Part shown: piece after piece, positions 1-64,000 of the stretch
Layout of the letters: each line of letters begins with the position of its first letter
How positions within the stretch are numbered: the first letter of the stretch is position 1
Assembly: GCA_037349105.1 (NCBI GenBank)
Contig: JAYJMM010000100.1
Location: forward strand, 2,505,001-2,569,000
Length of the DNA: 64,000 nucleotides
Reading direction: 5' to 3'
Source: Limnomonas spitsbergensis
Lineage: Eukaryota; Chlorophyta; Chlorophyceae; Chlamydomonadales
The notes under the pieces: model-generated
What the model saw: only the letters and a program-made list of their open reading frames with translations
Database searches by the model: none
What the model was told of the DNA's origin: nothing
Made by a program: the position numbers and the translations under genes

Positions 1-528
1 CCGGCAGCACATCCGGTCATCCTGATGAAACTGAAGGGAGACATCCTCTATGTTTTCTTTGAGCAGCATGAGCAGCATGAGAAGCGGCATTTCCGCTCGC
101 TCCGTTCACGTACATAAACAAAACACAGACAAAAGTAAATAAATAAACAAATAAATAATAGTGTTGAACATTGCAACAAAAAGTCCACAGCCAGCGAGGG
201 GAGGGTCATATACAGCAAGACACGCGGTTCATCCTTGAAGGAACAGGAAGGACATTGGAACAACATCCAGCCAATGGTTTAGGGGTTAGGGTTTACCTCG
301 AGGATCACAGAGATTTCAAGGTCTCGGGCTTAGGACAAGGATTTCGATTTTTGTAAGCTGAATGTCAAGTTTGCAAAAATGGCTGTCTTGAAGGGTGTAG
401 GGTTTTAGGGTTTCAGCGTTTAGGGTCGAAGACTCTAAGGCTTTTCCCTCCTTACCCTTTGACTTTTCCCTTTGATATTAATCATTGGGGTTTTCAGAGT
501 TTAGGTTCAAAGGCTTTTCCCGCCTTAC
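1..528. other. gyrA intron, no further exon found
   Basis: This is the intron after the last visible gyrA exon. A decayed copy of that exon's 3' edge lies at about 431-480 (CTTTTCCCTCCTTACC against CTTTTCCCGCCTTACC at the true donor). TTTAGGG-like stretches occur at 275-295 and 395-425. The first 170 bases show no gyrA coding match on the minus strand. Confidence 0.5.
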
Positions 529-3500
529 CTGTGACTGGTCGAAGTTGGGAATGAAGTCCACCGTGCCCAGGTCCAGGTCAGCCAACAGCGCCTCGTCACT
601 CAGCTGACGCAGCCGGCACTCGGTGTACCTGACAAAGGGGGGGGGGCACATGTAATGAGGGGAGGGTTGAGGGGGGTATGAGGGGAGGGGGAGGGGGGGG
701 AGCGCAGCTGATGCAGCCGGCACTCGGTGTACCTGGCGGAGGGGGCCCACAGCATTTCATAGATCAGCGTGTATAGGGGATAAGGAGGTGTCCATTTAGA
801 ACAAGGCCACAAGGTTTGGAACACGCTACCCGGTGGACATCTGCTCGGTTTCGACCAAGGATCTCCCTTTTGAAAGAGGCCTTTCGATTTAAACAAGGCC
901 ACCAGGTATGAACAAGGCCACCAGGTTTGGAACACGCTACCCGGTGAACTGTTTGTCTATGAAGCCATGCCCCATGCTTCGGCCAAAACAGAAGGCTCCA
1001 TTAATCCACGTCTTTGGACGCATTTAAACAAGTGCTGATTTATTTATTTTTTTGGTAATCAACAACTTGGCGCTTCATTATTACCAAGAAGCAGTTTCAG
1101 GGGCCTCAGGTCAGGGTTTGGAGGCTTATGGACGCATCTTCCACACTTTCCATACCTCATGGCCGCAGCTGGGTCGTTGTCCAAGGAACCAAAGTTGCCG
1201 TGACCCGAGATCTGCAGAATCAGGGTTGGTGAACTAGTTTGTAGTGATGAGAACAGGGTTTGGAGTGTGATTATGACAGGGTTTGGATTGCTGAAATCTT
1301 GAAATGTTCAAGTTTTGAAATTTAAACAGGGAACATTCTTTCATTACAACTACATCAGGAATTGCCATGGCCTGAGATCTGCAAAAAAACAGAGTTGGGG
1401 GGTCAGGATTCAGGATTTGGGCCCTGGAATATTTCACAGGGTGCAAGACTTTCAGCTCAGCCTACGTAAGATGTTGCCATGGCCTGAGATCTGCAAAAAA
1501 CACAGGGTTGGGGATTCAGGGTTGAGGGTTCAGGGTTCAGGATTCAGGGTTAGGGTCCTGTCATATTCAACAGGGTGCAACACTTTCAGCTCAGCCTACG
1601 TCAGATGTTGCCATGGCCCAAGGTCTGCAGACGCTGGGGTTGCAATCGGGTTCGGAGTGATTTCGAGCAGAGGCTTTTGAAAGCTGGGATTTTGAAAGCC
1701 CTGTTGCAGCAGTTAACATCAGAAGCTGCCATAGACCAAGATCCGCGTAAATAAAGTGATTTTGAAAAGGGTTGGGGAATCCGAAATTGTTCAGAGAGGG
1801 TGAAACTCTTTCAGCGCAGCCTAGGCCAGCAGGCCAGCTATGGACCGAGATCTGCATTGCAGGTTTTTTAAGAAGGTTTGGACTTTGGAGTGATCTGAGA
1901 TCTGCATTACAGGTTTCCTGAAAGGGTTTGGACTTTGGAGTCATCTTAGTACAGGGTTTGGAGTGCTGAAATTGTGGAGAGGGTGAAGCCTACGTCAGAA
2001 GTCGACATGGCCTGAGATGGGCACAACAGAAAGTAGGAAGCGTCAAAGCATTTTTATTTCAGCTGCAACCGGCAGGGCTCGGGGTGTTTAAGTAGCCTTA
2101 ACCCCCAAGACCCTTAACCCTAGAAGCACAATTGCTCCAGCCGCATTGAAACCTGACAATCCATAACAAACCCTGAACCCCAAAACATGTACTACAGGCC
2201 CATGACCCCAAACCCAAACCCTTAGTCCCGACACAATTCAAACCCCTCTCCCCAGGGGGTCGCGCGTGCTGAATTCACTGCAGCCTAAACCCTGAACCCT
2301 AAACTCTCAACCCCAGACACTGAACTTTTTAATATGAAAACATGTCAACACTTCAACCCCCACTTGGAACCCTGAACCCTAACCAAATCCTCAACCCCTC
2401 TCACCAGAGGTTCACGCATGCTGCATTAGCTGAATCCTTCACCCTTCACCCTAAACCCTAACGAAATCTCCAACCCCTCGCACCAGGGGGTCCCGCATGC
2501 TGAATTCCTGCGCCAGGCGCACCAACGCGTCATACACCGCCTTGTCCCCATGCGGATGGTACTTCCCCAGTACCTCGCCCACCACGCGGGCACACTGCAG
2601 TACAAGAGAGGTATAAAAGCAGTCGAGTAGAGTACATATTTAGTGAGAGATGCGTGCGCGGTGGCAGGTGGACTTGACACATTATTTAACGCGTCCTTGT
2701 ACTGCAGTGCAAGAGATGTACACAAGCAGTACACATGAAGTACATGTATTGGGAAGGGTGCGTGAGGAGTGGGGTGCAGGTGGCATGCCCTCATGCAGGT
2801 AGACTTGGCCCATAATTTATCCCACCCACCACGCGGTGATACTGCGGTACAAGAGATGTACACAAGCGGTACGCATGAAGTACATGTATTAGGAGGGGTG
2901 CATGAGGAGTGGGGTGCAGGTGGCATGCCCTCATGCAGGTGGACTTGGCCCATAATTTATCTCACCCACCACGCGGTGATACTGCGGTACAAAGATGTAC
3001 ACAAGCGGTACGCATGAAGTACATGTATTAGGAGGGGTGCATGAGGAGTGGGGTGCAGGTGGCATGCCCTCATGCAGGTGGACTTGGCCCATAATTTATC
3101 CCACCCACCACGCGGTGATACTGCGGTACAAGAGATGTACACAAGCGGTACGCATGAAGTACATGTATTAGGAGGGGTGCATGAGGAGTGGGGTGCAGGT
3201 GGCATGCCCTCATGCAGGTGGACTTGGCCCATAATTTATCCCACCCACCACGCGGTGATACTGCGGTACAAGAGATGTACACAAGCGGTACGCATGAAGT
3301 ACATGTATTAGGAGGGGTGCGTAGAGAGTGGGGCGCAGGTTACCTGTTCCCGGGCGGTTGGACCAAAGCCAGTATGTACCTCGCCCACAGTGCGGGCACA
3401 CAGCGGTACAAGAGGGGTATACAAGCGGTACACAAGCGGTATATAGACAATTAGGCTGCAGGGTGAGGTAGTCCCCTTTTTCTCAAACCTCCCCACCTTG

Positions 3501-62998: not shown

Positions 62999-63009
62999 CT
63001 GTGAGTCAG

Positions 63010-64000
63010 CGGGGGGTGGGGCGCATGTGTGGGCGGGGAGCAGGGATATCGCGCACAGTTGTCTGTGAGTCAGCGAAGAGCAGGGCATGTGTGAGCATCG
63101 AGCGGAGGTGGCGGGACGCATGTGTGGGCGGGGAATATGACGCGCACTGTTGCCAGTGAGTGAGCATGGCGCGGAGGTGGCGGGGCGCATGTGTGGGCGG
63201 GGAACAGGGAACAGGGAACAGGGAGCATAACTCACACCGTTGCCTATTTATGAGCATGGAGCAGGGGCATGTGTGGGCGGGGAACAGGGAACAGGGAGCA
63301 TAACTCACACCGTTGCCTATTTATGAGCATGGAGCAGGGGCATGTGTGGGCGGGGAACAGGGAGCAAGGAGCATAACTCACACCGTTGCCTATTTGTGAG
63401 CATGGAGCAGGGGCATGTGTGGGCGGGGAACAGGGAACAGGGAGCATAACTCACACCGTTGCCTATTTATGAGCATGGAGCAGGGGCATGTGTGGGCGGG
63501 GAACAGGGAACAGGGAACAGGGAGCATAACTCACACCGTTGCCTATTTATGAGCATGGAGCAGGGGCATGTGTGGGCGGGGAACAGGGAACAGGGAGCAT
63601 AACTCACACCGTTGCCTATTTATGAGCATGGAGCAGGGGCATGTGTGGGCGGGGAACAGGGAGCAAGGAGCATAACTCACACCGTTGCCTATTTATGAGC
63701 ATGGAGCAGGGGCATGTGTGGGCGGGGAACAGGGAACAGGGAGCATAACTCACACCGTTGCCTATTTATGAGCATGGAGCAGGGGCATGTGTGGGCGGGG
63801 AACAGGGAACAGGGAACAGGGAGCATAACTCACACCGTTGCCTATTTATGAGCATGGAGCAGGGGCATGTGTGGGCGGGGAACAGGGAACAGGGAGCATA
63901 ACTCACACCGTTGCCTATTTATGAGCATGGAGCAGGGGCATGTGTGGGCGGGGAACAGGGAACAGGGAACAGGGAGCATAACTCACACCGTTGCCTATTT
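63010..64000. repeat. Array of PDE12 first visible exon acceptor edge
   Basis: Units of about 75-90 bp carry CACACCGTTGCCTATTTATG with GGGGCATGTGTGGGCGGGGA. The first units next to the exon (GCGCACAGTTGTCTGTGAGT) match its acceptor CGCACAGTTGCCTGTGAGT. Later units have drifted and become uniform. The array continues past the right edge. Confidence 0.92.

Follow-up and report, generated by a model that had tools for sequence, protein, structure and literature searches.

The introns of a snow alga carry, next to their exons, tandem copies of the exons' own edges, and it is likely that these copies arise from frequent, untargeted short tandem duplication that is filtered by selection in exons and tolerated at exon-intron junctions. 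We studied them starting from a window of 64,000 nucleotides (nt) of Limnomonas spitsbergensis (GenBank GCA_037349105.1, contig JAYJMM010000100.1, positions 2,505,001 to 2,569,000), which is C100:2505001-2569000 in the analysed assembly of 260,226,709 bases and 124 contigs and holds four genes: part of nuclear gyrA, a gluQ-like gene of the glutamyl-Q tRNA synthetase type, a purple acid phosphatase (PAP) gene and a PDE12-like gene. In the main, the edge copies are tandem duplications of segments that contain the junction. A preliminary description of the window had given their anatomy, which stood in outline (the copies are real and lie on the right side) but was overstated in frequency and as a genome-wide regularity; across the genome the property exists but is uneven, and the window shows it in extreme form.

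Exon models with GT-AG introns were obtained for all four genes (28 exons) by spliced alignment to relatives, using a purpose-written splice-aware protein-to-DNA aligner with E. coli GyrA, E. coli GluQ and PAP and PDE12 homologues as references. The models are:

529..4608, minus strand: nuclear gyrA, the part in the window; exons 4483-4608, 2484-2594, 1156-1211 and 529-628, from tblastn and spliced alignment with E. coli GyrA
8214..15745, plus strand: gluQ-like (glutamyl-Q tRNA synthetase type) gene; exons 8214-8270, 9059-9177, 9398-9545, about 11578-11690, 13093-13185 and 15594-15745, from spliced alignment with E. coli GluQ
25064..33376, plus strand: PAP gene; exons 25064-25141, 25792-25943, 26660-26745, 27961-28034, 28590-28759, 29255-29387, 29573-29722, 31308-31413, 32471-32613 and 33296-33376, from homologues
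39873..48524, minus strand: PDE12-like gene; exons 48382-48524, 48044-48203, 46182-46306, 44229-44333, 42645-42911, 42176-42258, 40382-40493 and 39873-39936, from homologues and spliced alignment

The models miss some exons: one near 10.8 kb is absent from the gluQ-like model, whose first start and last end are unsure, and the PDE12-like model lacks exons near 41.1 kb and at the end of the gene. Also unsure are the gluQ exon near 11.6 kb and the first or last exons of several genes, including a weak first gyrA exon near 5.4 kb. gyrA extends leftward past window base 1, with more exons modelled as far as C100:2496361.

Each of the 28 exons was aligned locally with its own flanking introns (up to 4 kb), the null being the flanks of the other three genes (36-48 comparisons per exon). 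A copy of the exon's own edge scoring above every null value was found for 17 of the 28 exons (61%), at 12 upstream and 9 downstream edges, while by our own estimate about one such exon is expected by chance; at the 95th percentile of the null the count was 18/28, so that the "about three quarters" of exons first reported is too high. Matches upstream mostly begin at the first bases of the exon and those downstream mostly finish at its last bases, and copies of a whole exon are as rare as had been described (at most 4 of 35 edges, with matches on the wrong side at 5 of 174). The copies and arrays located in the window are:

4306..4375, minus strand: donor-side copy of the end of gyrA exon 4483-4608, shift 177, 90% identical, with more copies at shifts 344 and 732
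4658..4725, minus strand: acceptor-side copy of the start of the same gyrA exon, shift 118, 70% identical
2700..3340, minus strand: 140-bp tandem array (copies 74-78% identical) whose unit contains a CAG acceptor and a stretch resembling the beginning of gyrA exon 2484-2594
15481..15567 (approximate ends), plus strand: copy of the 5' part of gluQ exon 15594-15745, directly upstream of it
28445..28509, plus strand: acceptor-side copy of PAP exon 28590-28759, shift 145, 89% identical
31941..32321, plus strand: three acceptor-side copies of PAP exon 32471-32613, shifts 213, 375 and 530, 68-81% identical
39645..39907, minus strand: 53-bp tandem array in which the end of PDE12 exon 39873-39936 and its donor are followed by four more copies, 94-97% identical and all keeping an intact GT as decoy
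43031..43793, minus strand: five acceptor-side copies of PDE12 exon 42645-42911, shifts 172, 299, 434, 579 and 891
45752..46100, minus strand: three donor-side copies of PDE12 exon 46182-46306, shifts 150, 287 and 438

The side rule and the locality of the copies were examined in 95 exons, of which 35 belong to the window genes (including 7 gyrA exons outside the window) and 60 to chaperonin genes (PF00118; exons from 10 contigs, with 12 of 72 matches left out). Here and in the chaperonin, edge and interior, profile, intron-count and paralogue tests below, an intron is the stretch between consecutive modelled exons, and some of these stretches skip unmodelled exons. A direct copy lay in the adjoining intron on the expected side at 45 of 182 edges, against 5/174 on the wrong side, 2/182 in reverse complement, 0/152 in non-adjacent introns of the same gene and 0/182 in introns of other genes. 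The last comparison, made with exon edges, is also the one that bears on introners, mobile introns whose sequence is dispersed over many genes. Acceptor copies thus lie upstream and donor copies downstream, as first reported. The likeness continues past the splice site above the 95th percentile of the null at 27 of 35 edges (about 2 expected) and above the 99th at 20, and together with the direct, adjacent copies in unrelated genes this bears out the recurring local duplication process proposed earlier. The nearest copy is shifted by a median of 124 nt upstream and 151 nt downstream, and the copies are 66-97% identical, with many different periods at many loci. Among 65 pairs of copies belonging to one edge the nearer copy has the higher score in 42, and at 12 of 21 edges (8.1 expected) the best copy is also the nearest; both figures are too weak and too dependent to be used as an age gradient along the introns. 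Junction microhomology gave no information on blunt junctions, as near-identical repeat runs are dominated by multi-copy arrays.

To say that the copies "build" the introns, as the preliminary description did, is too strong, since copies derived from exons account for 9.3% of the intron sequence of the window genes and for 5.9% of that of the chaperonin genes. Arrays found by Tandem Repeats Finder cover 39.5% and 14.2%, respectively. Among the repeats of the window are a 28-bp unit in about 200 copies (48911-54538, upstream of the first modelled PDE12 exon), an 18-bp unit in 91 copies (13306-14948, between two gluQ exons) and a 72-bp unit in 23 copies that occupies most of one PDE12 intron (46393-48042). 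Telomere-like CCCTAAA / CCCTGAAC motifs are dispersed over many introns of the window, some of them as arrays (e.g. 9915-10320).

Outside the window the effect is weaker. Edge copies were found for 15 of the 60 chaperonin exons, and 20 of 69 chaperonin introns (partly with better models) contain copies, compared with 20 of 31 in the window genes. An HSP70 set, examined afterwards, consists of six genes modelled with E. coli DnaK, two paralogous pairs among them; exons under 45 nt and edges lacking AG or GT were left out, and the orientation test did not use the outer edge of a first or last exon. Copies occur there in 7 of 60 introns and at 6 of 106 edges (1 acceptor, 5 donor), the controls giving 1/106 in reverse complement, 1/106 in other genes and 0/106 in non-adjacent introns. 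Longer introns have copies more often, from 0/5 below 150 nt through 4/18, 9/28 and 12/24 to 12/22 at 1-2 kb and 3/3 above. The effect is real, locally strong and uneven across the genome, and it is a variant of phenomena that have already been described.

The preliminary description had placed the process at the splice sites. We compared 60-nt windows at exon edges, in intron interiors and in mid-exon, each against 1 kb on the relevant side. In the window genes, local copies were found for 13/28 acceptor and 14/28 donor edges, 54/160 and 53/160 interior points and 5/28 and 6/28 mid-exon points. The chaperonin counts were 16/60 and 8/60 at the edges, 47/240 and 39/240 in the interiors and 5/60 and 1/60 in mid-exon, and those of HSP70 were 4/59 and 6/62, 29/208 and 23/201, and 2/124 in mid-exon. 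Pooled, edges (61/297) equal intron interiors (245/1209), with mid-exon at 19/300, and the Mantel-Haenszel odds ratio of edge versus interior, computed by hand from the counts, is about 1.15. The donor profile goes from 9/88 (60 nt within the exon) to 24/95 at the edge itself and then to 24/84 and 20/53 in the intron, at +100 and +300, without a peak at the edge. The acceptor profile has only a shallow hump: 14/88 and 28/95 within the exon (at 60 and 20 nt from its edge), 25/95 at the edge itself, then 16/84, 14/54 and 16/28 in the intron, at +100, +300 and +400. The process is thus not centred on splice sites. Copy coverage drops over the last 60 nt into the exon, and window points outside the four genes have a local upstream copy more often than gene points do (185/352). 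As coverage is high outside genes and in introns and low in exons, duplication is pervasive, and exons are the exception.

It is likely, then, that the following sequence of events produces the edge copies. The nuclear genome would undergo frequent and untargeted short tandem duplication, of segments mostly about 50-350 bp long, by a mutational mechanism that may be the fill-in repair of staggered breaks, slippage or unequal exchange. Selection would remove the segments that fall wholly inside exons or contain a whole exon, while segments inside introns would survive. Segments straddling a junction would be kept at about the same rate as intronic ones, since the original site on the exon side would still be the one spliced and the extra edge copy, with its decoy splice site, would fall into the intron. 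The side rule would follow from selection alone, since a duplication that spans the junction spares the protein only when it is the intron that receives the extra copy. With time the copies would decay and the arrays would grow or shrink, and new copies could be drawn from the conserved exon edge.

In a simulation of this course of events, tandem duplications fell uniformly and had the unit lengths observed; the sequences underwent substitution and deletion, exons were under purifying selection, and events spanning a junction were given a factor of their own. A first version with full tolerance placed the edges at or below the interior (e.g. 0.39 and 0.36 versus 0.40). For the chaperonin counts the best edge factor was 1.0, the log-likelihood being lower by 2.4 at 1.5, by 8.4 at 0.6 and by 21.8 at 3, and for HSP70 it was also 1.0, with losses of 2.6 at 2 and 9.3 at 3. 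For the window counts factors from 1 to 2 were about equal, with losses of 25.7 at 0.3 and 4.7 at 3. The points are not independent, so these differences in log-likelihood are too sharp. In all three sets the model nevertheless speaks against strong targeting of junctions, and in two of them it also disfavours strong selection against duplicating a junction.

Several observations weigh against untargeted and tolerated duplication. Edges of the window genes exceed their interiors (27/56 versus 107/320), the best simulated factor for these genes is 2, although a factor of 1 is only 0.4 log units worse, and the shallow acceptor hump lies on the exon side. In the chaperonins acceptor copies exceed donor copies (13 versus 3), which symmetric tolerance does not predict, and the HSP70 counts also permit a factor of 0.3 (1.6 log units worse), in a simulation that assumes one purifying factor and one age. 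Furthermore, at 8 of the 35 edges the intron side of the copy was not above the null and the exon part alone was recognisable, either through decay or because the duplicated unit ended at the junction.

The excess at the window-gene edges, the hump and a simulated factor that may reach about 2 in the window genes would also fit a duplication process that is seeded at the splice sites, for example by breaks linked to splicing or R-loops, and that builds introns from the exon borders. We regard this as improbable. The chaperonins have little or no excess at edges (24/120 versus 86/480) and HSP70 none (10/121 versus 52/409), the donor profile is without a peak, window points outside genes have still more copies, and intron length is not predicted by copy number among paralogous introns (below). 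An engine centred on splice sites is unnecessary, and outside the window genes it is without support. A restricted form, which we find similarly doubtful, would apply to loci of the window type: duplication about twice as likely at junctions as inside introns, since transcription or splicing would leave junctions prone to staggered breaks, with introns growing outward from the edges and unusually strict exon recognition tolerating the strong decoys.

Untargeted duplication across junctions leaves decoy splice sites in the introns. Of the copies that reach the edge, 55 of 97 have an intact AG or GT (acceptor AG 26/51, donor GT 29/46); in a stricter set the numbers were 19/37 for AG and 15/24 for GT. 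Selection against the decoys, considered on these counts without a formal depletion test, was set aside. At least the tenth percentile of real sites was reached by 54/97 copies (25 acceptor, 29 donor), a score attained by 19% of intronic AG and 27% of intronic GT overall, and 16/97 outscore the adjoining real splice site. Use of the decoys would mostly break the reading frame: among the 27 intact decoys whose exon frame is unambiguous, a single one yields an insert that is open and in frame, which by our own estimate is near what chance would give. Judged from the sequence, splicing seems to ignore the decoys, perhaps via exon definition. Although 55 of the 97 edge-reaching copies keep an intact decoy, the results suggest that junction duplication is close to neutral here.

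The turnover of the copies can be seen in two pairs of paralogous genes, cpn60 on C36/C119 (exon identity 0.925, synonymous divergence (dS) 0.38) and CCT7 on C39/C99 (0.865, dS 0.93). The cpn60 introns were modelled independently on GroEL and the CCT7 introns were defined via splice sites common to both members, giving 19 introns at matching positions (9 in cpn60, 10 in CCT7). Their lengths differ up to about 3.4-fold between paralogues; introns 1-4 of cpn60 align over most of the shorter member and most other introns only partly. An edge copy is present in 17 of the 38 paralogue introns. At sites where the paralogous exons differ, the copies have the state of their own exon in 122 cases, that of the other in 37 and neither in 31 (own in 122 of 159 informative), and own states are the majority in 22 of 26 copies with at least two informative sites. 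In copies found with the other paralogue's exon, which gives the opposite bias, own still exceeds other by 96 to 52 (96/148), and own states are the majority in 14 of 25 copies. As own-exon states prevail, many edge copies, and probably most, either arose after the gene was duplicated or were later refreshed from the exon beside them. Intron 8 of CCT7 holds a copy at shift 108 in each member, and each of the two is closer in sequence to the exon of its own member; this suggests an old array that has been refreshed from within. The number of edge copies was rejected as a driver of intron length: across the 19 introns the difference in copy number did not correlate with the difference in length (rho -0.23, p 0.34), and the member with more copies was the longer one in 4 of 9. 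Because copy number fails to predict length, edge copies are better seen as one part of a general turnover than as a demonstrated motor of intron growth.

The contigs C36 and C119 both carry a cpn60 and an HSP70 gene, and another HSP70 is on C21/C124 by exon lengths. Together with CCT7 on C39/C99, these paired contigs show signs of segmental or whole-genome duplication.

The paralogues also bear on the birth of introns by tandem genomic duplication of a proto-splice site, which is suggested by copies that are tandem and in many cases contain splice sites. We rejected this as very unlikely, since it requires a shift equal to the intron length, while the median nearest shifts (124 and 151 nt) are far from the median introns (788 and 497 nt), and since the 19 introns share their positions in both members of the pairs and hence are not new there. 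An artefact of assembling or polishing repetitive long reads is also highly improbable: assembly of arrays is difficult and may have given near-identical ones the wrong copy number, but the copies are diverged (66-97% identical), with many periods and at many loci, and the published assembly is described as built on 63x PacBio long reads (read L50 33 kb) with Illumina polishing (PMC11228838). Chance or low-complexity similarity among CAG-rich, telomere-like or CATG-rich DNA is hardly credible despite the strong compositional bias of the window and the CAG-rich gluQ exon near 11.6 kb, and it is contradicted by the reverse-complement (2/182), non-adjacent (0/152) and other-gene (0/182) controls against 45/182 in the adjoining introns.

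As to the genes themselves, seven PAP exons are modelled in the same way whichever of the three references is used, the best organism-named PAP match is Chlamydomonas sp. UWO 241, and the relatives of PDE12 include Tetrabaena socialis. A Pfam scan of the three plus-strand frames over 10 kb gave one weak match only. Elsewhere in the assembly there are three full-length matches to PF00521 (topoisomerase IV/gyrase A; L002, L003 and L004 on C93, C30 and C14) with 0 or 2 in-frame stops, whereas the gyrA of the window is split by introns; a further match (L013, C37:1222000-1231999) reads, by its motifs, as eukaryotic topoisomerase II and not a second gyrA. Downstream of the PAP gene lies a 99-bp repeat (33 residues; 34829-35293) that looks ankyrin-like by eye.

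Earlier work has reportedly dealt with introns in tandem arrays in human genes, and with internal gene duplication and intron creation. In the titles and abstracts searched we found no description of exon-edge copies in algal introns, subscription literature being mostly outside the scope of that search. In human segmental duplications, internal tandem repeats at exon-intron boundaries are reported for about 7% of such genes, with 27 intron modifications (PMC2812944). As here, tandem units at a splice junction alter intron structure, and there also splicing, in recent paralogues; in Limnomonas, however, 12-65% of introns are affected depending on the gene family, by decayed copies of many ages. 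Intron gain via tandem duplication of an AGGY proto-splice site is described in Drosophila (PMC2891723) and potato (PMC4974935), and it similarly involves tandem duplication of exon sequence with a splice motif. Here, in contrast, existing introns gain copies, the shift is not equal to the intron length and we saw no new intron position. Small tandem duplications from filled-in DNA breaks, involving CST-Pol alpha-primase, are reported in human and mouse cells (PMC8355091); these are short, direct and adjacent like the copies here, and such a process would be a plausible source of them.

The published Limnomonas spitsbergensis assembly is that of an Arctic snow alga with 54.15% guanine plus cytosine, a mean intron of 788 bp and UWO 241 as a close relative (PMC11228838). 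The main text of that paper has no word beginning with "duplication", and its tandem-repeat passages concern the methods and the mitochondrial genome. Full-length transcripts of the species are published with it, and they could reveal how splicing treats the decoys (PMC11228838). Since exon edges serve as conserved reference copies, the divergence of a copy from its exon gives a rough clock. Unusually long introns are shared with the volvocine algae in the core-Reinhardtinia; a study of these describes the driver as unknown and probably of ancient origin, and its available text does not name local tandem duplication as the driver (PMC8226300). It seems that the genome of Limnomonas offers a visible source of long introns of this kind.

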